NCBI GenBank assembly: GCA_023333565.1
Contig: JAJKFH010001865.1
Location: 5,270,001-5,334,000 of the forward strand
Length of the DNA stretch: 64,000 nt
Source of the DNA: Puffinus mauretanicus
Taxonomy: Eukaryota > Chordata > Aves > Procellariiformes > Procellariidae
Direction of reading: 5' to 3'
A program made the translations under genes and the position numbers. Numbering within the stretch: the first letter of the stretch is position 1; each line of letters begins with the position of its first letter. This document shows positions 1 through 54,156 of this stretch, piece by piece. The notes beneath the pieces were generated by a model, which worked only from the letters and a program-made list of their open reading frames with translations, searched no databases and was not told the DNA's origin.

Positions 1-9498
<9,498 letters not shown>

Positions 9499-13789: not shown

Positions 13790-20580
<6,791 letters not shown>

Positions 20581-20769
20581 AGGACACAGGCACGGGAGGC
20601 CGAGCGGAGGGACCAGCGCAGCAGACCACCTGCCTTCTCGCCCAGCACCTCACTTTGTGGGGCACAAGGAGACGAGAATGAAGGACTCGCCGATGCGGGT
20701 GCCGCTGCCAGTGCTCCCGCGCCCGGCCGAGACTCCAAAGGATGCCTCTCCCGAGAAAACACTTTTACC

Positions 20770-20775
20770 AATAAA
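20770..20775 (+). terminator. Polyadenylation signal AATAAA of second ADH gene
   Basis: First canonical AATAAA downstream of the TGA stop at 20578-20580, about 190 nt away. Confidence 0.6.
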
Positions 20776-20799
20776 GGGTTTCAATCAGACTCGTCCCAT

Positions 20800-23700
20800 G
20801 CAGTGCACTCAATCGACAGAGGTCCTACGGGGCAGGAGGAGCTCTTCTTCATACCACAGGTCCTTCCATCACACCCCTTGTCTCAGCAGCAAACAACTGC
20901 TTTTGCCCCCTCCACTGCTGCTGCCTCCCACCTTCACCCACTTTACACACGTATGCCCACACGTCTCTGCCCGCAACTCAGCTGGGTGAATGCTGCAACC
21001 TCAACCAAAGTACGGCAGCGAAACGACAGCTGCTGCTGCTGCTGTTCTCTGGTCTCACTCACAGGACCAAAATGTCTTTTGCTACATGAGGTTACTCTCA
21101 GGTAAAAGCTGTCACTCCAGCCCCTTTCATTTAAACATAAGGTTTTCTTATCACATTACTTTGTCCTATTCTCTCCTAATTTTCCCTTCTTCAATTCACA
21201 TTTGTCGTCTTTAGATCCTCTGGCCTCCTGAGCTCAGTCTGGTGGCTTTTCTCCTGATCTAGTTTTGTTCTTGATAACAACCTCAGAGAAACATACAGGT
21301 TGGAACCAGGAGGAGAAATTACAAGTGCATTTGTGTGCCATGATGCGTAAATGTGAGTGCTAGGGGTACTATACCTAGACTTTCAGAAAGTAAAAAGCAA
21401 AATTCTCCTTACATTGCAGTAGTGCAATTCAATAGGAGCTACCAGGATCACAACCTGGATCACAAACTAAATTTGTTCTGTGCACAAAAGGAAATGCAAG
21501 GATACGATCCTTATAGGTCCCTTCCAGCTTGAGATATTCTAGGATTCTATGCTTCTATGATAGCATGGACTCAAAATTAGCAATTGCTGTAAGATTCCTG
21601 TTCTCTATTTTAACACATTTTTACCCTCATTCTCCTTCACTAGGGTGAACAGAATCAATTGTACATGTTTAATAGACCTTTATCAATATTTTTGTTATAT
21701 CTTTTCAGTGTATAATATGTCAGGATGGATCTAACTCTCACATTCCTTACATCATTTGCCTCCTCCCCCTTCCATTTTGTATGAGGTACACAATATCTTT
21801 GTTCTAATGGAAATTAAAGTGACAGGGCACCTTAAAGAATAGTGAATTATCAATCTTGCTAACAAATGCAAAGCCATATCTGCTAGGATATGATCTAGTT
21901 TGTTCTTCATAGTAGAAGTGCAAAGATTGTCTCTGAAACTGGTGGCCAGTTACACTGAAGACAAAAATTTAATGCTGAAGCATTAATAAAGGCATTAATA
22001 TCTGCCTTTGTCTTTTAATTAAAAATTATTGACGGGTTTGAACAACTGCAGGCAGGGGAAAAGATAAGATTTGTACTTAGCCCTCGTAAATGCATTTCAG
22101 TCTATTCCACAAAGTGATTTCTGTCAACTATTCTTCCATTTTTCCACCACTTTGATACAGACAAGAAACGAACATAATGCACAGAGGGGGCCAGAACACT
22201 GACTACCAAGATAAAGACAAAGACCTTGAGGCCTGTGCCTGTCTGTACAAATACCTGACCTAACAGATCAGTTATTAAAACTTGCCTGATACGTGAACAC
22301 ATGTAGCAAGTCAGGATATGAATTATGTTTAACACAGACACACAGTATCTGTCATTAAAAAGTTAATCATTAAATCCATGCCTACTGACATACGTTTGAT
22401 TTTATTTTCCCTCTATTAATTGGATAAGAAAAAACCATCCTCCACAAAGCTGCACAGCAACAGGATCTCAGTATCAACTCCCCTCCATATTCACATACAT
22501 CTCAAATGTTTTGCAGAGCTGTCAGCTACCCATGGCACCTCACAACTGCAAGCAGGGCAGTCAGCAATTCTGAAATCTATGTTGTCTTCACATCAATGTT
22601 GGGTTTGCAAGTTTGATGGAGAAGAGCATCACATGGATGTTTTAAGGAAAAATAATATTACACATTTGAAACACCTTTTTACAACGATTTTGTAGGGTAT
22701 AAGCTCAACAGCAGAGACTGAACATGTCCTAAGAGGCATGAAATACCAGTACATGTAGCACTGTTCATATTTATGTCCTTATGTGTAAAATGAAAACATA
22801 AGCCATATGTATGCAATGTTATCTAGGAAGCAGTTGAATTATTTCATTATCTATCACAGTATTTGTAAAATTTGTTGTTCTAGACTTTGAACACTAGCAA
22901 CCATACGGGATATCAGCCATACAGCATTTGTCCTCTGGAGTTGCTCTCCAACTCTTGCACAATGTAGAAAACTGAATGGTAATCAAAACCAATTAAAATA
23001 AGGCTCAAAAGCTGTGTAAAGTGGGTCTGTCTGAACAGCTTAAAGGATATTTTTGTTTTCAGCTAAGCACTTAAACATCAGTCCACTTTCAAAGTGGAGT
23101 GAAGATTGCAAAGCACATGAAAGCAACTAATCCTGGAGAAGAACCACATCTTTGCTCCACCAAATCTGGTGAGTGAACTGACAGGATAACAGGCATGAAG
23201 GACATGTGAATCACTCGTAGAGCTCAGTGTCCTAAGCATGAGTCTGCAGAGTAATGCCTTCCTGATTTATGAATGCTGAATTTTTTTTCTGATAAGAACT
23301 AATCTTTTTTGCATCCTAACGTTAACAGATGTCTCTTGATTTTTTAAAAATATTACTATCAGTATATCTATCATTTTGTTCAACAGCTGAAGAGTTGAGT
23401 TCTGCTCACTATAGCATTCTAAATGGTTCCTGATCCGAGAAGGGTTTTTATGTCATTATTGGTAGTCTTCTAGGAAATTATCCCATTCCTTAGGTATACA
23501 AAAACGTGCTGTCAGCCACACGGAATGAGAATTCCTTTCTAGTGGACAGGCCTTTTCTAGTCTATCATTTCCTTCTACACTAGAGCTGGTGGGATCATGA
23601 AGGTCCTCAAGGCTGAATTAGGCACGTGGAAACTTACTTTCGTTACAGACAACACGAATTCTTACACAGCAGGCCCCGAACTGGGAGAGGGACGGGCAGA

Positions 23701-25530
23701 AGGATGAACTGGCTTTCAGTGCTAACCAGCTTTTCAGTGGGCTAAGCAGTTAAGGGTGAAGAAAAAGGGAAGCATGGAGCAGAGAGGTAGGGAGAGAACA
23801 CAGGTATAAAGAGATACAACACCTGAGCAAAGATTTTTATTTTAAGTTGAAAAGAGCTCTCATTGCTTTTTCTAAGAACATGCAAAATTTCAAAGCTATA
23901 ATCAATATATGGCATTTCTGACATGCTGGGGTCAAGTTCACATGTGTGACTAGGAAAAACTGATTATCTTTACTGGCATTTAACCATATCATCTCCATTT
24001 TTAATCTCTTCATCCATCATCCTTCTGTTCCTTTTATCAGTTTCTCCTTGGCAGCAGCTTAAAGTTGAGTATATGATAAGTCTAGTGATTCTAGCTGGTT
24101 GCCAAAGTACACATAACAACCCTGTGTATTCAATATTTTAATGTGTGGCGTTTCTTTCCAGAGAAGCAATGGGAAGGACACATTGCTCTTTGGAGTGGTT
24201 TCCAAACTTACCTGTTTCAGCTACAATTCTATTTTAATCAATTTTACAGCTCAGTTTCTTTGAAATAACAAAAAGACCATCTCTTCTAGAATATAAATGC
24301 AGACTCAGCAGTCTAAAACTACCATCAATAAAACACCAGTAGATTTATGCAAGATATATTTTAACCCAGAAAAATATTTAATACTCTGTCCTAGCAAACA
24401 GTTTATATGGGCAATGAGCCCATATATGAGATTGCAAAAATCAAAAGGAAACAAATGGGTTTGCTCCATAACATGTACATGAAGCATCGGAGTATCAAAC
24501 ATTGTTCTCTACTGATGCTTACGTACTGTTAGAAGCGCATATAGAGAGTACCCAGCCCTGAACAGACCATCACTTAGAATATTTTCGTTTTCTGTTTGAG
24601 TATTTGCGACTCTGTACTGTTTTCTTATACTTGAGAGATGACAATTACACACCATTTCTCATCAAGTGTCCCCTTTCCAGGTCTTTCACATTGTAGAAGT
24701 AACACAAACACAAATGTCAATCAATCTTTGCTTCTAGAACCATGTAAACTAGCACTATGTAAATGTAGTATATTATCTGAATAATCCTTTGGCATTTATT
24801 TTAAGTCGAATACTCTGAGCTCTGACTTACACAAATGTTATGATAGCCATGCCAGATACTCCAGCAGGGGATATCAATATTTTAAATACAACCTAGTTCC
24901 CATAAAAATCCAATACATCATAAGATTGTTGTCATTTACACCACCGCTTTAGAGAAACTGATGGACATGTGCACTTCTAGCAATATCATTCATATCAATG
25001 AAATGGTAAGCAGATAAATCTCTTACGACGCTGATCAAATGTTTACTTAATAAAACTCTGCGTCGAGCACCTCTGTTTGTGAAAGAACCTCGTTCTCATA
25101 AATTCATTTCAGTCTCCTACAGGAGAAGAAAAGCCTGCTTGGGGCATCCAAGTCATAAGCAAGAAACCAATAATTACATGCGTACACAGTAACTCTGTTT
25201 CACAGAAATTATTTATAGAACAGTACCACAGAAACAGCCACCTCATATATTTTACAATGGAAATCCTTGGAAGTGCCCACTACAATGAGTACAGCTCTCA
25301 GTAGCATCGTTTACATTTTATTTCTATGTAACACAGTTTTCTCCTATAGAACAGGCAGCAGAATCCTGGCTGGAAACACAGGTTTCATGCTCCAAGTGAA
25401 CTGGAAGAAAAACATCTCCCAGAGGCAGAAAAAATTCCCTTGTTTACCCAGCACCATTACCAGGCAGCACTAACAACAACATTAGTATGGAAACTGAGGC
25501 AAATTATATCCAAGTTACCTATACTGTGCA
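20800..25530. other. Intergenic, AT-rich, no gene seen
   Basis: Short open frames only, none with recognisable domains or exon context. The only element noticed is a tiny CR1 tail near 21.5 kb, listed separately. Confidence 0.5.
21508..21562 (+). mobile_element. CR1 3' end remnant
   Basis: The segment reads GGTCCCTTCCAGCTTGAGAT followed by repeated ATTCTATG-like units, which is the typical end of avian CR1 elements in plus orientation. Only the extreme 3' tail is left. Confidence 0.6.
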
Positions 25531-25536
25531 TGGATG

Positions 25537-26165
25537 GCTTGTGTTGTAGCTCCTGGCAGGACTGCAGATACAGCTCTAACTGCATCACGTTCAGATGGAC
25601 CCTCCTGCGTTTCAGTTTGTGCCCATTGCTTCTGGTCCTGTCACCGGGCACCTCTGACAAGAGCCTGGCTCTGTCCTCTTTGCACCCTCCCTCCAGGTAT
25701 TTGCACACATGGATGAGATCCCCTGAGCCTTCTCTACTCTGTGCTGAACAGTCCCAGCTCTCAGCCTTTCCTCATGGGAGAGATGCTCCAGGCCGCTAAT
25801 CATCTTTGTGGCCCTTTACTGGACTCTCTCCAGAATGTCCGTGTCTCTCTTGTACTGGGGAGCCCAGAACTGGACCCAGCACTCCAGATGTGGCCTCACC
25901 AGTGCTGAGTAAAGGGGAAGGATCCCCTCCCTCGACCTGCTGGCCATACTTCGTCTAATGCAGCCCAGGACACCGTTAGCCGCCTTTGCCTCAAGGGCAC
26001 ACTGCTGGCTCATGTTTGACTTGGTGTCCACCAGGACCCCCAGGTCTTTTTCTACAAAGATGCTTTCCAGTTGGGCGGCTCCCAGCATGTACTGGTGCAT
26101 AGGATTCTTCCTCCCCAGGTGCAGGACTTTGCAATTCCTCTTGTTTAACCCAATGAGACAAAGGA
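25537..26165 (-). mobile_element. CR1 LINE fragment
   Basis: Minus-strand frame 25816-26181 encodes the C-terminal part of CR1 reverse transcriptase ([37 protein letters not shown]). Downstream sequence to 25537 matches the end of the CR1 coding region. It is truncated at both ends, with several stops and frameshifts. Confidence 0.88.
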
Positions 26166-26189
26166 CAGCATGTCTTTTCAAACCTAAGA

Positions 26190-29100
26190 AATAGCAATTT
26201 CCCTTTAGTTTTTATTTAGAGACTCTGGCATACAGTATTTCAAGTGAATCCAAGGGAAATAAAAAGAAAGTCACACTGCAAGTACATTTTTCAATTACTC
26301 TGGAAAAACTACGAACCACAACGTTTTACTGAAGCATTATTCTTTTCCTGTAATGCCAGATTCTAGTCTTAGCCGTGCTATTAGTCTGGTGTGAGATCAG
26401 ACTTTGGTTATTGGTTATTGGTATCAAAACATCTTCTTCCATGGTTTTTGTGAACCATGAAGGTGCGTATTGTAGAAATTAACCAGTTAGAGCTAATACA
26501 CAGAATATAGAAATTACACAAAGCAGCTCACTTAGCTACGTTAGTTATTACATAAAGCAGCCAAACAACAATAATTTATCTCTTGCACATACATGTTAGC
26601 TTCAGTTTTCAGATATTTGAGACTAAATTACCATGATGAACAACAAGTAAAGAAATTCTGGAAAACCATGTTCAAGGACAATGAATTCAAACTGGAAGAG
26701 ATGCAAAGGCATGCTACTAGCAGGGCCAAAGAAAAGAAAGCCATGGTGACAAAAGAAACTATAAGTGTGTGGCTCACCTAGTCTAACAAAAGGGAGGGTA
26801 AAAGGATATGGCTACCTTCCAAAAATAAATTAAGGGTATAAACACTAAACAAGGGAAAAACTTTTTGCGGTAAATGGCATTGTTTGCACAGGAACAACTG
26901 GGGAAAAGTAGCCTAGAAATTAAAAGAAGACTAATCAGATCAAACTATCATAAATAATCTGAATGGCAGTAAACCCCCCCTATTTTTAATACAGAACATG
27001 TCAGGTTTATGATAAGGGCTATATGATACAGTTCCTATAGCAGCAAAGGAATAGACTCAGATTTATTGCAATTGCATCTTCAAATATGTTCAAATAGAAC
27101 ATTTCATATAAGAAATCTACCCAGCCCCTCAGGCATGTCATGTGGTGCACAACACTCATACAGAGATCTGCTGCTGTTCCAGGCACTGCTCCATTGATGG
27201 CATCCTGCCTGAACAGCTGTGCAGGGTGACACACCTCTGGAGCACATGTGTTGCAGTGAAGGTCTTTGCTGATTCCTGTGAGTTCGGAATGGAAATATAC
27301 TAAGCACATACTTATTTCTCCCAATTCCCTTTCCTTCCTTCTGCATTTGCTGTGTGATTAAAGTTCTACAAAGCCTAAAGAGAAGCCTAGCAACCATCTA
27401 GATAATCAGCAGAAGCAGAGGCAACTCTTCCTTCAACAACCACTTAAGTTTTATACCTGTGAATAAGCCCTTTGCATGCACACTTCTAATGCAAATGGCT
27501 TTCTCCAGAGGTGGCAGTTGCTCTAACTCAGAGCACCCAGGTACCTTGCCATACAAGCAACGCTTCATAAGGAACAGAATTAAAAAGAAAAGCATTAAGA
27601 GCAATTACTCACTGACTTACTTAGCTATACCAAAATTTGTATTTAAAAATATTCTATTTAAAAATACACCTGTTACATGATCAATGTCTAAGCCATTGAT
27701 CTGGATTCTGTTCTGCGGCGAACAAGTCAAATTGTAACAGCTGAAATCTTGGTAATGTTTTTACTTGAATTGGATTTTCTGCTGCAACACTTAGGACTGC
27801 TTGGTTTGAATAGTTGCTACTGATTGTTACAGACATTGAGAAGTCAATTATAGTCCTAGTCTGGATCACATAGTTTAAAGAACAAGATGAGGCAGTGTCA
27901 ATTAAATTCCTCATCAGATCACCACATATTCTGATCAATTCTCACCATATGCCAGGAAAAAATAAACTCTTTAAAGAAAGCAATTTCATGTGATCGTACA
28001 ACATCATCTTACAGCACAGATAAAACATGGCAGAAATGTAAGGATGCTTTTATCTTCATACACAAGTTGCATGAAATATAAACATGGTCACCAACTTCAG
28101 TGGGAAATTACATGCCTTTGATACTTGCAGGTACAAAACCCCCTACTTTCCTTATAGAATTCCTCACAAGTATTAGGACCTAGGCTAATTCTTTTTCAGA
28201 ATTCTCAATTTCATATTTTGACCTGTACCTTAGAGATATCAGTTACCTTCATTTTTGTTTTACTTGGAGGTAACATTCCTTTTTCTCAGTGAAAGAGAAC
28301 GTTTCACAGACGTGTCAGTAACAACATTACTAGGAGCTTTATGCCAGTACTAACCTGATAATATTACCCAAGTCATATTACCCAAAGTTTGCACAAACTG
28401 AGATGGGAACCTTATTCCGGAACAAACACAGCACAAATTTGCTTTGAACGTAATTAAACATTTGCAATAAAGGCTGGTTATCTCTTGAAAACATCCTTTA
28501 TAATAAAGTTGCTGACAGATTTTCTGCTCTATAGGGTTTAATAAATGCAGGAAGAGTCTTACTTTGTTTTAATTTTGGTAAGGATTATAGGAGTGTACTT
28601 ATTTTTTCTTTTGGCTTTCTTCACATCCTTTGGGCTTTGCATGCTAACGCAAGACAAAGAAAGTTGTCTGTTGTACATCAGTGTATCTGTTTTAGTAAAC
28701 AGATGTGTTTCAATAGAAATGCATATAATTTTTATCATCTTATCTTTATCACCAGAATAGTATTAACGGCATCTCTTGTCAGCCAGTATTTTGCTATTCA
28801 AATCTCTGTAGTTCCTTTTCTTGCTTTGAGGAGGAATTCATCCCCCTTAGCAACTAAGCACTGAGGCTTATATTTATGTACTTTATCCATGTATAGTTGG
28901 TGATAAGCAGATGATAATGTGTTTTGGCTTTCACATGCAAAATTTATGATTCCATTATGTTACATCTGTGTTTATTTACTGAACCAGTGCTAAAGCTTTT
29001 ATGTGAACTTAAGTAAGTTTCTTGAAGGCTTCCAGGGCCTTCCAGGTGTATGTCCCAAACATTAATTCTTAAAGAAATCATGGAGATTTTTAAAAATCCC

Positions 29101-29755
29101 TAGATTATTAAAAAAAAATGCGATAAAAGAGAGCGGGGTTACAATGGCATAGTCTGAATTTCTCAGGTGAAATCTTACTGAGAAAGTCTGTTCAAATGGA
29201 GAAAACTGTAACTGGCACCTAACTCACAGCAAAAATGGCCTTTTCTCTGTTCTGAAGGAAATAATAATAATTCATTAACAACACAATAGAACTTACTCAT
29301 GTTACAGCGTTATACTAACGTTTGCAGTAGCAATTTTCAGAAACTTGGTTGATGTATTGTCATTTCTTTTTCATTTTTGAGGGGTTTAGACTAAATATTT
29401 TGTTTGGTACAAACCATCACCGACTTAAGTTCAGCTCCGAACCAGGACATGCATGGAGTTTAGATACTTGCATTCGAAAGCAACATCCAAAAAACCCCTT
29501 TATTCCCTAATAGGCTGGAAGAGCAGGCACCTAACTTCAGTATAGCCTATTCCAGTTTTGATCTGACAGTTCCCAGGTTTGCATTTTCGCCAGAACTGCC
29601 CCAGTTCCACAGGTTCGTCCACTGAAAAAGCATTTCTCTACCAATGCGAAGTCACTCAGTAGTCCTACATAGGACCTGCTAGTCCTCGTTCAAGACCAAG
29701 GGCACATCGTGCTAGGCACTCTGAACACAGAATAGAAACGCATCCTCTGCCCTAC
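26190..29755. other. Intergenic, no gene seen
   Basis: AT-rich sequence with a few 60-100 residue frames. The frame at 26593-26781 has a lysine-rich, coiled-coil-like composition but no recognised family and no splice or promoter context. Confidence 0.45.
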
Positions 29756-29760
29756 AGAGT

Positions 29761-30160
29761 TGTACTGGGTCTGGCGAGGATGGAGTTAACTTTCTTCGTA
29801 GCAGCCCATATGGTGCTGTGTTTTACAGCTGTGACCAAAATAGCGTTGGTAAGACACCAATGTTTTAGCTATTGCTGAGCAGTGCTTGCACAGTGTCAAG
29901 GCTTCTCCGTTTCTCACTCTGCTCTCTGCAGCAAGCAGCCTGGGGTGGGCAAATGGTTGAGAGTACTGCCAGGACAGCTGACCTGGATTGACCAGAGGGA
30001 TATTCTGTGCCATATAATGTCATGCTCAGCAATAAAAACTGGGAGGTAGTCTTTCAAGGTAACTGTTGCTCAGAGACTGGTCGGGCAACAGTCTCCTCGT
30101 GGGAGGTGATAAGGGATTGCCTTTGCATCACTGGTTGGGTTTTTTTTCCCCCTCAAATTT
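29761..30160 (+). mobile_element. Degraded, truncated ERVL-like LTR
   Basis: Collinear with the first 400 bases of the solo LTR at 36982. Shared blocks include GGAGTTAA near the start, AGCGTTGGTAA, a TGTTTTAG block, GGGATATTC and TGTCATGCTCAGCA. It lacks the 3' half and no internal retroviral genes adjoin. It is older and more diverged than the second copy. Confidence 0.75.
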
Positions 30161-30169
30161 ATTAACTAT

Positions 30170-31200
30170 AAGCACACATGTTCATTAATTGGGTAAGTTT
30201 GCTCTTGCAGTTCACAGACATTCAAAACTTAGAATCAGTTTTGTGCAAATAACCTTTGAGGATATTATTAGGGCTGTTCCTGGTAAAGGAGCATATGTAA
30301 AGGGACCCAAGATGGTATGTAATACTCAGTGACTTATGGATACTGGACTGTACATTCCACGTAGATCATTACCAAATATGTTGTTTATTCAAATATTCTG
30401 TCAGCAATGTGTAGAGGGATGCAGCGTAACTAGCCTTCATTTTAAATTACTTTAAGATCTTACTATAATTCATTCGAAAAGTGATTTATTTTTTTCTCCC
30501 AGGAAGCTCACAAAATAAACTTACAACTCAGAAAATCTGCAAATCTTCTACTAGAAAATAAGAGTAACAAAATGACACGTGCTTCAAGAATCTAAATCTA
30601 ATTCTAAATAATGTTTGGTATCCAGGAGAAAGAAACACAGAAAAACAATTTGGAAAGATACAAAAGAAAAAGTAGATGCAAAAAAGGATATGTAGTCTAT
30701 TTAAAATGTGGATTCCTTCATGACAGTGTTTCAGCAGTTAGTGTACTTAGTAGAGGCTTGACATTTCTGGAAGTGATTATCAGAACAAGGTCATTATAAG
30801 GGTCTCCCATTTGCCTCCCAGTTTCTCAAAACACTGGATACAAAAAGATGCAATAAAGCATTCAGACTTGCAGTTTATTAGGAGTCACACACCTGAATAC
30901 AACAACAAAGCAATTTTTCATTTTCAGAGTGTAACTGGATGTGTAACAGTATTTAATGTATTAAGTATTCTTTCCAGGATATTACTAAAGTCATTTGGGT
31001 TGTCATTTTATCAAGCAAAAACTAAACTAAACTATGTGATACTTAAAATAAAAAATACACAAAGCTTTATAATTTAGTTGACTCCTTACAAATCAGCAAT
31101 TTGTGGAGTAACAGTTGGCTCCTAACACAGCAATGAAGGTATCCTGACCAAACACTGCTTTTTAACCAAAACTCATAGCAAAGACAACCAAAAAATACCA
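30170..31200. other. Intergenic, no gene seen
   Basis: AT-rich. Frames at 30611-31077 have no recognised domain. No additional ADH relic exons were recognised here, although a very diverged one could be missed by eye. Confidence 0.4.
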
Positions 31201-31213
31201 CCAGCGCAGATCT

Positions 31214-31265
31214 GCCATTTAACTAGTAATAGGTCTGGTGCTGTTCTTCAGCTGGTATCCCACAA
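31214..31265 (+). pseudogene. Possible ADH exon 7 relic
   Basis: The stretch AGATCTGCCATTTAACTAGT then AATAGG lines up with ADH5 exon 7 around 46850-46881 (AGATCT, GCCATT, AACTAGTAA in the same order) with one deletion of about seven bases. In one frame it reads LVIG, then LFFSW, similar to the ADH4 LIIGR...FFGGW end of exon 7. It lies about 430 bases before the clear exon 8 relic, a plausible intron 7 length. The match is short and could be chance. Confidence 0.3.
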
Positions 31266-31690
31266 AACCAGTGGATTTTTGGGGCACGTGTTATACAGGA
31301 TTCAGAGTTATTAATATTCAGGTTATTAATATTACTGTATCAGTATATTAATATTATACTGTAATTAGTGCTCAGTGTGGTGGGTATATTTAACCTGGAC
31401 AGTACACAACACTCAGCAGTAATTAGACACTTGAGAATTTCCTGCACTCATGAAACATCCATCGATCAGATTTAATAGCTTTTGTGAAATACGTACGTGG
31501 CTGATAAGGCAAGAAAAGCATCAGAAAAGAAAGTGTGACCACTGGCTTGAAAACTGAAGTAGGGAATGAGGCAGAAAATCAGGCAGGTGTCTAATCTTGG
31601 ATGAAATGATTTTTTCTTGTAACCTGATTTATTAATTAAATTCAGTTTGTTCACTGTTAACAGAACTTGGTTTTATGGATTTTGTTGAAG

Positions 31691-31830
31691 GTTGGAAGAG
31701 CGTGGAGAGTGTACCAGAGCTGGTGTCTGACTATACGGCAAGGAAATTTTATTTGCATGCCTTGGTGTCATATACATTGCCATTTGACAAAAATCAATTA
31801 TGCTTTTCACCTTATGATTGCAGGAAAGAA
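31691..31830 (+). pseudogene. Relic ADH exon 8, ADH4-like, frameshifted
   Basis: Isolated ADH exon 8. It reads GWKSVESVPELVSDY, then KFYLHALVSYTLPFDK, then after a one-base shift INYAFHLMIAGK. Functional exon 8 is 139 nt in all three local genes; this one is 140, the extra base being an A in the run at about 31787-31791. An AG precedes the first base in the correct phase, while the donor has decayed from AG-GT to AA-GC. Residues such as ALV before the [12 protein letters not shown] block fit mammalian ADH4 better than the ADH1 or ADH5 versions (PLI, EFV). Its place between the other ADHs and ADH5 is where ADH4 lies in mammals. Exons 1-6 and 9 were not found. Confidence 0.85.
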
Positions 31831-32070
31831 GCAAGGTATCAAGAAATCAAATCTACCTTATACTGTTCATGAGGCATATTTTAATCACAGAAACTGAATA
31901 TTTTGTTGTCCTATCTTATGAGTCTATCAACTTGGATGCATTTAAACAGAAAAAAGAAAAAAAAAGATGCATCTTCAAATGCTCCAAGAAAATCTCATTC
32001 CCGCCACTAATTCATATCTGAAAAGGAAAATTAACATGCAGTCAACGATGCTATGTATTTCCACAGCTTT

Positions 32071-33465
32071 AGAATCATAGAATCATAGAATCATTAAGGT
32101 TGGAAAAGACCTCTAAGATCATCAAGTCCAACTGTCAACCCAACACCACCATGCCCACTAAACCGTGTCCCTAAGCGCCTCATCTACACGTCCTTTAAAT
32201 ACTTCCACGGATCGTGACTCAACCACTTCCCTGGACAGCCTGGTCCAAGGCTTTCAGTAAAGAAATTTCTCCTAATGTCCAGTCTAAACCTCCCTTGGCG
32301 CAACTTGAGGCCATTTCCTCTCGTCCTATCGCTAGTTACTTGGCAGAAGAGACCAACACCCACCTCACTACAACCTCCTTTCAGGTAGCTGTAGAGCACA
32401 ATAAGGTCTCCTCTGAGCCTCCTCTTCTCCAGACTAAACAACCCCAGTTCCCTCAGCCGCTCCTCATAAGACTTGTTCTCTAGACACTTCACCAGCTTCG
32501 TTGCCCTTCTCTGGACACATTCCAGCACCTCAATGTCGTCCTTGTAGTGAGGGGCCCAAAACTGGACACAGTATTCGAGGTGCGGCCTCATCAGTGCCGA
32601 GTACAGGGGCACGATCACCTCACTACTCCTGCTGGCCACACTGTTTCTCATACAGGCCAGGATGCTGTTAGCCACCTTAGCCACCTGGGCACACTGCTGG
32701 CTCATGTTCAGCCGGCTGTCAACCAGCACCCCCAGGTCCTTTTCCTCTGGGCAGCTTTCCAGCCACTCTTCCCCAAGCCTGTAGCGTTGCACGGGGTTGT
32801 TGTGACCCAAGTGCAGGACCCAGCACTTGGCCTTGTTAAACCTCATACAGTTGGCCTCGACCTATCGATCCAGCCTGTCCAGGTCCCTCTGTAGAGCCTT
32901 CCTACCCTTGAGCAGATCAACGCTCCTGCCTAACTTGGTGTCGTCTGCAAACTTACTGAGGGAGCACTCGATCCCCTCATCCAGATCACTGATAACGATA
33001 TTAAACAAGACTGGCCCCAGAACTGAACACCGGTAATGTAGTCTGTGACCGGCCGCCAACTGGATTTAACTCCGTTGACCACAACTCTCTGGGCTCGGCC
33101 GTCCAGCCAGTTTTTTACCCAGCAAAGAGTGCACCTGTCTAAGCTGTGAGCCGCCAGCTTCTCCAGGAGAATGCTGTGGGAGACAGTGTCAAAGGCTTTA
33201 CTGAAGTCCAGGCAGACCACATCCACAGCCTTTCCCTCATCCACTAGGCGGGTCACCTGGTCATAGAAGAAGATCAGGTTGGTCAAGCAAGACCTGCCTT
33301 TCATGAACCCGTGCTGGCTGGGCCTGATCCCCTGGATGTCCTGCACATGCCTTGTGAGTGCCTTCACGACGAACCGCTCCATAATCTTTCCCGGTACTGA
33401 GGACAGTCTGACAGGCCTGTAGTTCCCCGGATCCTCCTTCCAGCCCTTCTTGTAGATGAAGTTAG
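32071..33465 (-). mobile_element. CR1 LINE fragment upstream of ADH5
   Basis: The 3' end at 32071 shows three tandem ATAGAATC units. Minus-strand frames at 32184-32846 and 32930-33382 encode CR1 reverse transcriptase pieces, including [18 protein letters not shown] and [13 protein letters not shown], broken by a frameshift near 32.9-33.0 kb. It is very similar along its length to the copy at 52458-53690. Confidence 0.93.
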
Positions 33466-33469
33466 TGTG

Positions 33470-36400
33470 AATTTATCTGTGTCAAGGACAATTCAGCAAA
33501 GAGCAAGGGAAGAAAACTTCCCCAAATTTCTCTTCAGCATGAGGACAGTTTCTACAGGGATACAAAAAAGCTACTGAGCCAATCAATTAAACTATCACTT
33601 TCATAGCCTGCCAAAGGAGAGCAATGCTACTAAGCTGATGAACAGCCCACAGCGATAGTATTGCCCAAAGCTCTAATGGAACAGGAACATCTCAAAACAG
33701 TAAGTAAATACTATACATATCCAAGTTCCACATACCAATATTTTGTGTTTGTGGGTTGGGCTTTTTTCTCAAGTTTAAAACAAACATTTATGTGGTTGAT
33801 TTTCTTTGTTGCAGCAATTGAGCTGTCCTCGTTTTCTAAGGATTGACCTCAAATTTTTGAAGACTTTCACTTGAACTTAAGCCTTATTTTTGGCTGATCT
33901 CATTGTTTAACAAATTGATTTAATATTTAATAACTATGTATTAAGAATTAATATGTATTTAAGAAAGCTCACACAAATATGGAATGGTAGCATTGAAAGG
34001 TAATGAGGGACAGTACCTAGCACTGTATTATTTGAAGCATATTATATAAAGCAGTAGATAACTTTCTTATTATCATGTAACATTTATACACGCATACATG
34101 GATGTGGTTTCATTTCTGCAAATGCTGTTGTACTTTTAATATATTTCCAGCACCAAGTCCCACAGCACAACCGTGCAAAATCTTCCCCGGAGAACAGGAT
34201 TGCCACTGAGAGCGGGTCATTCTACCACAGACCCTTCTTTCGGTGCTGAACATTGGACCCATAACACTGTAATGCCTTTTGACCTCTTTTGAGCAACTCT
34301 TATCCCAGTCCATAGCCCTTTGAGCTTCTGGAAACCCTTCAGCACGATCAGCAATTACACAGCACATCATGAACACACAAATGAGTTATCAAAGATTAAA
34401 TTCCATCTTGTCTGTCAATTTACAGTAACTTCTGCACATAGAACTCACTTTATCCTGCTATAAAAGTTACCTATAATTCTCTTAACTACTTTTTAAGCAT
34501 AAAACAATAAGACTGCAGGTAATGAGATAACACCAAAATAACTCGTTAAATGTTTTAATTGAGTTCTAGCACTTCCCTACCAAGAAAACACTACAAGAAG
34601 TTCCTCCCAATAAACAATATGTTTCCCTACTACTGCATGTGTGTCTGCACAGCCTTAATTTTATACTAGTGACAAGTCTCAAAAAAAGTAATCAATTAGC
34701 CTAGTAACTCTGTAATAAATATAAACACAAAAATAGATTTGTGCAAGACAGGGACAAAAAAAATTTTCTTTTTTGAAAAAAATCTAAACCTAGATGAAAA
34801 CAAAATTTGATTGCTATAAAATAACTGCCTTAAGTCAATTGTAACTTGCACTTTACCAATCATTTTGAACTGTTGCTACATGAAAAATTGTGTAAGCACT
34901 CCTGAATAGTGATGAGTTCTGTCATTACAGCAGTGCCACCTGGTGATTACCTTTCACTGCTTTCTCTGCATACTGCCGATCAACTTCTGAACATGCTGGA
35001 AGAGTGGGATTTCTGCACAGCTCAAGTATCTGCCCGCAACAGACATCCGTGGCCGAGGTTTGCCCTGTGCACAGTGGTGTGCGTGGGCACACGCGTGTGC
35101 AGCCGACAGCTCCACGGAACCTTCTGCCATCCTCATTGCTAAGCTCTGCTACCAGCCGCGACGTGACAAGTGCCAGTGGGAAGCTGTTCAGCTGCCCTTT
35201 CCTCCAGCCAGCGAAGGCGTTACTGCTAACTTTCCAGTAACTTGGAGATTCTTCTGCTCCTTTGACAAGGATCACTAACTGGGCAAGACTTCAAATTTCA
35301 GCAGATAATTAGAGAGCTCCTCAAATTCTGCTTGATTCCTAAAACACCACTGGTTTCACAGCTGACCAAATAATTATGTTTGAAAGACTAGCAAAGACAT
35401 TTATACATATCAGAAGAAAATGCTGTCAAGTGCAAGCAAGGAGGGGCCAGCATAACCCTCCACCCACTTTTATCTTTAAAATTTCGCTTGCATAGTTAGT
35501 TTAAGATCAACATATCAGAATCAGCACATAAAAGATCAGCTTTTTGTGTTTTATTTAATTTTCAATGAAAGCAAATACCTGAGACTATTTAATCACAAAA
35601 CTCCCCAAATGACTTATTTCCATATCTAAAATATTAAAAATCTTTCAGTATCCCAGCCTCATGTGTCTCTGCAAAACTGTCACGGTCACTTTCATATTTA
35701 TTTTGAATACATCTAATTAACATGGGCCTTTGTTTTGAAAAGTTATTTTACTTCAGTATACTTTAGTATTATACCAGAATTAATTAGCGAATATGAGGAT
35801 TAATTAGTGAAATTATTCCTAAAGTTTTTCTTTTGGAACCAAACATTTCTTGAAATACTGGATAATATTTTAAATTTATATTTGTATTTACAAAACCAGA
35901 ATATTTTAATTAACTACAAATTATCCAAAGAAACATCAACCAGCTTTGAATGTTTTAAATTAAAACAATTTTGATTTTTTCAGTGTTTCCGTTTTTCAAG
36001 CAGTATATTTGTTCCTTACAAAAATAAATTTATGCTGATTTGAAGAATGACAAGAATTTCTAATTTTTTTGAAAGCTACGCAAGTATTACCCTCCAGTAT
36101 TTCATAGGAAAATGTAGGAAAGATTAAATCAGAATTCAAAATGATGGTTTTGAGACTAATGCCCCACAAAAAGTCTGCTATACTCAAGCAACCACAGCTG
36201 AAGTCTGTGCACAGGTTATCCCAGGTTTAATGGGGTTGTTCTAATGAAATATATCTAACAAAACTACTTAAATTACACTGGTTTTATTTGGGAAATTGTA
36301 TTAATAGGGGAAAAATTACCTCTGGGTCAATCTAGCACCATTTCTGTTTGGGGAAAATAAACCAGGCAACGTTTGTGTGAATGCATTTCAGTTTTGCCTA

Positions 36401-36981: not shown

Positions 36982-37580
36982 TGTGCTAGTTTTGGCTGGG
37001 GTAGAGTTAATTTTCTTCACAGTAGCTAGTATGGGGCTATGTTTTGGATTTGTGCTGGGAACAGCGTTGGTAATTCAGGGATGTTTTAGTTACTGCTGGG
37101 CAGTGCTTACACAGAGTCAAGGCCTTTTCTGCTTCTCACCCCACCCCACCAGCGAGCAGGCTGGGGGTGCACAAGGAGTTGGGAGGGGACACAGCCGGGA
37201 CAGCTGACCCCAACTGACCAAAGGGATATTCCATACCATATGTCGTCATGCTCAGCATATACAGCTGGGGGAAGAAGAAGGAAGGGGGGGACGTTCGGGT
37301 GATGGCCTTTTGTCTTCCCAAGTAACGGTTACACGTGATGGAGCCCTGCTTTCCTGGCGATGGCTGAACACCTGCCTGCCAACGGGAAGTAGTGAATGAA
37401 TTCCTTCTTTTGCTTTGCTTGCACGCGCAGCTTTTGCTTTCCCTATTAAACTGTCTTTATCTCAACCCACGAGTTTTCTTACTTTTACCCTTCCGATTCT
37501 CTTCCCCTCTTCACTCACTGCGGGGGAGTGAGCGAGCGGCTGCGTGGTGCTTAGTTGCTGGCTGGGGTTAAACCACGACA
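36982..37580 (+). mobile_element. Solo LTR, avian ERVL-like
   Basis: A 599-bp unit starting TGTGCTAGTTTTGGCTGGGG and ending GGTTAAACCACGACA, so it has the TG...CA termini of retroviral LTRs. A polyadenylation-like ATTAAA lies near 37446. Flanking pentamers CTCAC and GTCAC agree at four of five positions and may be the target-site duplication expected for ERVL-type insertions. No internal retroviral sequence is attached, so it is a solo LTR left by recombination. A second, older, truncated relative is at 29761-30160. Confidence 0.85.
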
Positions 37581-39496: not shown

Positions 39497-49875
<10,379 letters not shown>

Positions 49876-52457: not shown

Positions 52458-53690
52458 AATCATAGAATCATTAAGGTTGGAAAAGACCTCTAAGATCATT
52501 GAGTCCAATCGTCAACCCAACACCACCATGCCCACTAAACCATGTCCCTAAACGCCACATCTATGTGTCTTTTAAATACTTCCAGGGATGTGACTGAATC
52601 ACATCCCTGGGCAGCCTGTTCCAAGGCTTGACCACTCTTTCAGTAAAGAAATTTTTCCTGCTGTCCAATCTAAACCTCCTTTGGCGCAACTTGAGGCCAT
52701 TTCCTCTCATCCTATCGCTAGTTACTTGGGAGAAGAGACCAACACCCACCTCGCTACAACCTCCTTACAGGTAGCTGTAGAGCGCGATGAGGTCTCCTCT
52801 GAGCCTCCTCTTCTCCAGGCTAAAGAGTCCCAGTTCCCTCAGCTGCTCCTCATAAGACTTGTGCTCCAGGCCCTTCACCAGCTTCGTTGCCCTTCTCTGG
52901 ACACATTCCAGCACCTCAATGTCCTTCCTGTAGTGAGGGGCCCAGAACTGAACACAGTGTTCGAGGTGCGGCCTCACCAGTGCCGAGCACAGGGGCACGA
53001 TCACCTCCCTGCTCCTGCTGGCCACACTAGTTCTGATACAGGCCAGAATGCCATTGGCCTTCTTGGCCACCTGGGCACACTGCCGGCTCATGTTCAGCCG
53101 GCTGTCAACCAGCACCCCCAGGTCCTTTCCCACCAGGCAGCTTTCCAGCCACTCTTCCCCAAGCCTGTAGCATTGCATGGGGTTGTTGTGACCTAAGGGC
53201 AGGACCTGACACTCAGCTTTGTTGAACCTCATACAGTTGGCCTTGGCCCATCGATCCAGCCTGTCCAGGTCCCTCTGCAGAGCCTTCCTACCCTCGAGCA
53301 GATCAACACTCCCGCCCAACTTGGTGTCGTCTGCAAACTTACTGAGGGAGCACTCAATCCCCTCATCCAGATCGTTGATAAAGATATTGAACAAGACTGG
53401 CCCCAAAACTGAGCCCTGGAGAACACTACTCGTGACCGGCCGCCAACTGGATTTAACTCCGTTGACCACAACTCTCTGGGCTCGGCCGTCCAGCCAGTTT
53501 TTTACCCAGCGAAGAGTGCACCTGTCTAAGCCGGGAGCCGCCAGCTTCTCTAGGAGAATGCCATGGGAGACAGTGTCAAAGGCTTTACTGAAGTCCAGGC
53601 AGACCACATCCACAGCCTTTCCCTCATCCACTAGGCGGGTCACCTGGTCATAGAAGAAGATCAGGTTGGTCAATTCAAGCAAGAAGGAGA
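52458..53690 (-). mobile_element. CR1 LINE fragment downstream of ADH5
   Basis: The 3' end with ATAGAATC is at the low coordinate. The minus-strand frame from 53886 to 52765 (373 residues) carries reverse transcriptase motifs [22 protein letters not shown] and KFADDTKL, with its first part outside the element. It is closely related to the CR1 copy at 32071-33465 and lies in the same orientation about 20 kb away. Confidence 0.93.
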
Positions 53691-54156
53691 TCAGGTTGTC
53701 ATATTCAAGCAAAGTTACAGCTCGACAGGTGAAAAAATAGCCTTTTACAATATTTTTATTAAATAAGTTTTGTTCTCCAGGCTGATGTGCTATCTCATAT
53801 TGAAAGAACTGGTGTAGATGCTGACTAAGCTTTACACTTGTTTGAAAATACTGTAGTAGCATGAACTCAGTATAAACAGGTTTCATGCTGTGATTTCAAT
53901 TTATAGGCAGAAATGCATAGCATCATAGATTACCTATATTAAAAATGTGCAGTGTCAAATTTGGTTGTGTTGGTGCAATGACAAAGAGGCATTCAAGTGG
54001 CACATGTGCAGGTTTAAGGGTGATTTTTAACTGGTTGCATGCGTCTACCAGTATGGCTTGCACTAGTGCAAGCAAACTTGGATATAATTGAGAATGCTAT
54101 GTCTGGTTTTGATCACAAAAAAAAAAAAGTTATTTCTGTTAAAAGCAGCTGCAACT

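Follow-up and report, generated by a model that had tools for sequence, protein, structure and literature searches.

The ADH cluster of Puffinus mauretanicus contains a stray copy of exon 8 between the class VII gene and ADH5, which raises the question of whether it is the remnant of a class II ADH (ADH4) gene or a by-product of one of its neighbours. A first-pass annotation, made from the letters alone, had described it as a lone ADH4-like fossil exon at 31691..31830, 140 instead of 139 nt long through a single-base insertion, with a preserved acceptor AG and a decayed donor, and located between the other avian ADHs and ADH5. We followed up this description in the window, by which we mean the whole 64 kb stretch of DNA that was analysed, and which contains no N. 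Each part of the description held, with the exception of the word lone, as a relic exon 9 was found at 33815-33839, with 1,984 nt of intron separating it from exon 8.

The relic exons and their neighbours

A class I probe detected three sets of ADH exons on the + strand plus an extra exon 8 at 31690, matching the latter with an E-value of 5.3e-8. We take the first set to be a class I gene, from its grouping beside the human class I row, and the second is presumably a class VII gene, from its grouping beside a pigeon protein; the third is ADH5 (Table 1). The end of the class VII gene had been placed near 22.1 kb by a weak match, which was replaced by position 20580 from the exon 9 scan described below. 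The first two residues of its exon 8 (19788-19926) appear to be Asp-Trp, in contrast to the Gly-Trp of most ADHs. The relic lies between the class VII gene and ADH5, adjacent to class III and on the same strand as the rest of the cluster, and its orientation and residues, as well as its position, fit class II. In a turtle, class II also adjoins class III; the published coordinates put about 7.0 kb between the two (PMC4028059).

Table 1. Features of the ADH cluster, in window positions; class names of the first two genes are presumed.
Feature	Position	Strand	Remarks
Class I ADH gene	1608..9498	+	Exon 2 (first detected) to exon 9 (9474)
Class VII (ADH-F type) ADH gene	15080..20580	+	First exon detected to exon 9 (20556)
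Expected place of class II exons 1-7	20581..31690	+	Exons 2-7 undetectable; exon 1 too short to test
Decayed exon 8, class II ADH (ADH4)	31691..31830	+	139-nt exon plus 1 inserted base; acceptor AG kept; GC at donor position
Relic intron 8, 1,984 nt	31831..33814	+	Boundaries set by the two relic exons; CR1-like stretch inside
Decayed exon 9 (coding part), same gene	33815..33839	+	Acceptor TTTTCTTTGTTGCAG, then N-stop-A-V-L-V-F-stop
ADH5 (class III)	42332..49875	+	First exon detected starts at 42332; exon 9 at 49851

Read directly, the relic exon 8 opens with GTTGG immediately after the AG at 31689-31690, and the base that brings its length to 140 nt lies in a run of A. Its translation, WKSVESVPELVSDYTARKFYLHALVSYTLPFDK, carries no stop upstream of the one-base frame shift in the A-run, after which it continues as NYAFHLMIAGK. 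The 3' end reads GGAAAGAA, followed by GCAAGG, with GC at the donor where all three paralogues have GT (AA/GC at the boundary in the relic, AG/GT in the paralogues). A frameshift-tolerant profile, built on five sauropsid class II proteins, scored 161.6 at this exon, whereas 30 first-order Markov resamples of these 20 kb gave no more than 41.6 on either strand. Ostrich ADH4 matched it by tblastn with an E-value of 2.6e-13 when searched against a 20 kb stretch. A protein search with the 47-residue peptide found no homologue among proteins of similar length. Eight of 46 residues differ from anything seen in ten class II segments from sauropsids and amphibians, compared with five in ostrich, for which the comparison set is a different one. 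The eight include the replacements of two Asp that do not vary among the 18 class II segments examined, and they are as expected after loss of constraint. Further upstream, at 29513-29526, the stretch AGGCTGGAAGAGC resembles by eye the start of a paralogue exon 8, with no likeness beyond it, and is probably due to chance.

The relic exon 9 was identified with a pattern consisting, after AG and one base, of [IN] R T [IV] L [VIT] [FYL] and a stop, which was scanned in the stretch 3' of exon 8 and in two control stretches, and then in the window. In the 64 kb, on both strands, only four positions match at least six of the eight elements, 9474, 20556, 33815 and 49851, all on the + strand, and those other than 33815 belong to the three living genes, class I, class VII and ADH5, as their exon 9. 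When the 10.5 kb separating exon 8 from ADH5 were resampled 300 times, the score was reached in 5 resamples; the hit is a moderate match taken alone and a strong one when order, strand, phase and splice site are considered together. An in-frame stop replaces the Arg of class II. Its first residue is N, as in class II of ostrich, turtle and lizard, whose C-terminal end is S-N-R-T-[IV]-L-V-[FY], and not the I of the three neighbouring genes. Crocodile class II ends in S-I-R-T-V-L-V-F, and crocodile and human ADH4 have I or V at this position, which makes the N typical of most, but not all, sauropsid class II proteins. The structure of the surviving exons, a 139-nt exon 8 (plus the inserted base) and a short exon 9 that ends the frame, matches that of ADH.

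Within the old intron 8, a stretch starting at about 32074 is taken by us to be CR1-like, the family being named by its 3' end sequence. Reverse-transcriptase domains (Pfam PF00078) were present in two of the five long open frames scanned, at 17528-18550 and 52768-53895, both on the - strand, and presumably belong to CR1-type retroelements. The interval from the class VII gene to ADH5 also contains direct repeats of two families (29965-30043 with 37191-37269, and 25760-26059 with 32452-32751), 77% and 73% identical, which are probably dispersed elements.

Class of the relic

Among solved structures, the best match to the relic exon 8 is human ADH4 (51 bits), ahead of mouse class II (42.3 bits), ADH5 (41.5 bits) and class I (40.1 bits or less). 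We also counted identities over 46 residues, reading through the frameshift codon, against 136 exon 8 segments, 130 of them from 137 proteins (seven were dropped for a gapped alignment or for lying off an end) and six typed. In this set, which is mostly class II or III since it was drawn from an ADH4 search, the best 25 segments are all class II by label or by sequence. The highest identity is to ostrich and tortoise class II (35/46), class II of other reptiles reaching 33-34/46 (34-35 in turtles, 33 in crocodile), whereas the bird's own genes share 27/46 (ADH5), 26/46 (class I) and 19/46 (class VII). Two proteins labelled ADH1, from Zootoca vivipara (P0120) and Castor canadensis (P0026), have a class II-like exon 8, which suggests mislabelled or chimeric gene models. 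Mammalian ADH4, which is functional and belongs to the same class, also lies in a tandem ADH cluster, where it adjoins ADH5; the chimpanzee protein has 30/46 residues in common with the relic.

Phylogenetic trees were built with 32 full-length rows. The relic falls within the amniote class II set (UFBoot/SH-aLRT 98/94 for exon 8, 97/94 with exon 9), as sister to ostrich class II (87/37 and 94/28, respectively), a placement of modest strength that draws on 46 + 8 surviving residues. With exons 8 and 9, AU tests rejected pairing with the bird's own ADH5 (p 0.0005), class I (p 0.0007) and class VII (p 0.0003), as well as a position on the class III stem (p 0.032) or on the I/VII stem (p 0.033). 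With exon 8 alone, pairing with the own class I (p 0.0034) and ADH5 (p 0.0021) was again rejected, and the class III stem (p 0.092), the I/VII stem (p 0.089) and pairing with crocodile (p 0.142) were not. With exons 8 and 9, the test did not reject a constraint that groups the relic with every class I, VII and III row (p 0.134) and that also limits where amphibian class II sits. The relic thus reads as a class II ADH (ADH4) orthologue, with the class-stem alternatives rejected only when exon 9 is included, at p about 0.03. The first-pass annotation had argued that the residues favour ADH4 over ADH1/ADH5 and had proposed a tree as a check; the identities agree with it, and the tree, now run, does not group the relic with the bird's own class I or ADH5.

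The nomenclature requires some care, as the HGNC ADH4 is the "ADH2" of PMC4028059, in which "ADH4" denotes class IV.

Fate of the gene

The 5' part of the gene left no trace that we could detect. On the + strand, from the end of the class VII gene (20580) to exon 8, the profiles of class II exons 2-7 scored 29-38 at best and in no case attained the corresponding null 95% point (34-44, from 60 resamples), whereas the same profiles score 65-362 on the three living paralogues. In a wider scan (22.1-42.3 kb, both strands) an exon 6 match was obtained at 41794-41901, just 5' of ADH5, with a score of 41.8, and was set aside as chance (null 95% point 41.0, maximum 44.0). Since decay only to the level of exon 8 would show easily, exons 2-7 were probably deleted or replaced. 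The class II hallmark is a four-residue insertion after position 115 (PMC4028059), and the part of the gene with this insertion site is undetectable in the window. By the published coordinates, a turtle class II gene spans 42.4 kb (PMC4028059); here, the class VII stop codon and the first detected ADH5 exon are about 21.8 kb apart.

The search was extended to the whole assembly, covering 1.21 Gb in 2,370 contigs. Ostrich ADH4 gave 24 matches, 22 of them in the ADH cluster, where they correspond to seven exons of three genes and to the relic exon 8 (E 3.2e-8); the two others are noise (E 0.36 and 0.52), so that no ADH4 exon was reported outside the cluster in the whole assembly. A Pfam search for zinc dehydrogenases yielded nine matches, three in the ADH cluster and six on five other contigs (C422, C608, C1251, C225 and C783); the frames on C422, C608 and C1251 look to us like quinone-oxidoreductase-type proteins.

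We conclude, with a probability of roughly 0.93, that the relic is the 3' remnant of an inactivated class II ADH gene (ADH4) between the class VII gene and ADH5. As they stand, exons 8 and 9 cannot code for an enzyme, given the frameshift and GC donor of exon 8, the stop in exon 9, the replaced invariant residues and the undetectable exons 2-7. These disabling lesions, the absence of a functional copy elsewhere in the assembly and the existence of functional orthologues in related species are the marks of a unitary pseudogene. Position, orientation, residues, tree and AU tests all speak for the earlier idea of a lost ADH4 orthologue, and its corollary, the loss of class II in this bird lineage, gains from the undetectable exons 2-7 and from the lack of any intact ADH4, or other ADH4 exon, reported in the assembly. 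In the proposed course of events, the class II gene would have been inactivated in its place between the class VII gene and ADH5; exons 1-7, of which exons 2-7 were tested, would have been removed, most simply by one or more deletions; and the remaining exons 8 and 9 would have decayed neutrally, the old intron 8 carrying a CR1-like element. Exon 8 is in rather good condition for a very old pseudogene (8/46 unusual residues), which may reflect either a slowly evolving lineage, or a loss younger than the neognath stem, or a longer period of constraint.

Two other readings, which we consider very unlikely, concern what was lost and what was kept. ADH4 may not have been lost at all, an intact copy being missing from the assembly or located elsewhere and the relic being a secondary fragment; some "missing" bird genes did later prove to be masked by sequencing difficulty. 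Against this, the 64 kb are free of N, the assembly-wide search reported no other class II exon, the relic sits at the expected place, and among the protein matches listed no bird but ostrich is named for class II. Alternatively, and with similarly slim prospects, exons 8 and 9 may have been kept for a new use, for instance as a regulatory element or to provide the class VII gene with an alternative 3' end. Such a use would account for the survival of these two exons in readable form when exons 2-7 have disappeared, and would suit the AG kept at both acceptors, the lack of a stop in exon 8 before the frameshift, and the 8 unusual residues compared with 5 in ostrich (on different sets). It sits poorly with the frameshift, the GC donor, the exon 9 stop and the loss of two Asp invariant in the 18 class II segments compared, and a deletion of exons 1-7 accounts for the pattern without any function.

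A recent local partial duplication of the bird's own class I, class VII or ADH5 gene, leaving stray 3' exons, is hardly credible. Tandem duplication is common in ADH clusters (PMC4028059), and the relic does share the tandem cluster and the strand of these genes, but its identities to the three genes are well below those to ostrich and turtles, all three pairings are rejected with exon 9 at p 0.0007 or less, and its exon 9 opens with the N of ostrich, turtle and lizard class II, not with the neighbours' I. A processed (retro)pseudogene is ruled out, as exons 8 and 9 are 1,984 nt apart and each follows an acceptor AG.

The extent of the loss among birds

Homologues of ostrich ADH4 were collected as the best 120 of 7,996 candidates scored, with some rows unnamed and short gene models excluded. 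Among the matches listed, class II occurs in turtles, crocodile, lizards, tuatara, amphibians and mammals, and full-length proteins are available from ostrich, turtle, crocodile and lizards. Among birds, these matches name ostrich alone for class II, in a cluster of five members, the others being unnamed; the other bird-named rows listed (tinamou, starling, goose, pigeon and myna) are class III, class VII or composites. Class II ADH is active with ethanol in ostrich and with retinoids in humans. Activity of the ostrich enzyme is recorded in PMC4028059. The ostrich protein is the nearest relative of the relic by tree, with 35/46 exon 8 residues in common and an exon 9 of the form N-x-x-[IV]-L-V-F, but it is complete, with 380 residues, whereas Puffinus retains only the disabled exons 8 and 9.

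Because ostrich retains the gene, the loss of ADH4 is probably common to neognath birds; such a loss, which looks ordinary in kind, may concern the majority of living birds. That class II ADH was lost once, in the ancestor of all neognaths, with the 3' remnant as a shared scar, we regard as an even bet. It would parallel STK33, for which a unitary pseudogene at the palaeognath-neognath split is already known (PMC4509753): STK33 is reported to be present in palaeognaths including ostrich, with only remnants left in 28 of 28 neognaths analysed, with large deletions, lost exons, indels and stops. The gene is a different one, and the case of STK33 covers 28 species, whereas that of ADH4 draws on one genome and on absence among the protein matches listed. 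Borras et al. 2014 (PMC4028059) counted class II as present in birds, the tabulated ostrich enzyme being the only bird example. A full-text literature search, with most subscription papers beyond its reach, found no description of a neognath ADH4 loss.

The locus indicates a dead class II gene in at least one bird other than ostrich, and probably a neognath. If this is true, the handling of ethanol and retinol in such birds rests on class I, III and VII enzymes, and the remnant provides a marker that can be screened across birds for dating the loss. In ADH5, Puffinus has the residue of goose, myna and starling at two aligned sites, where tinamou and two turtles differ; at two others, tinamou shares its residue with myna and starling, and Puffinus with goose. 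For the globin exons of Puffinus, the best bird chains are 3wr1 (beta) and 3wtg (alpha). In the tree, the ADH5 of Puffinus groups with those of goose and myna, apart from tinamou (94/88, and 93/88 with exon 9).
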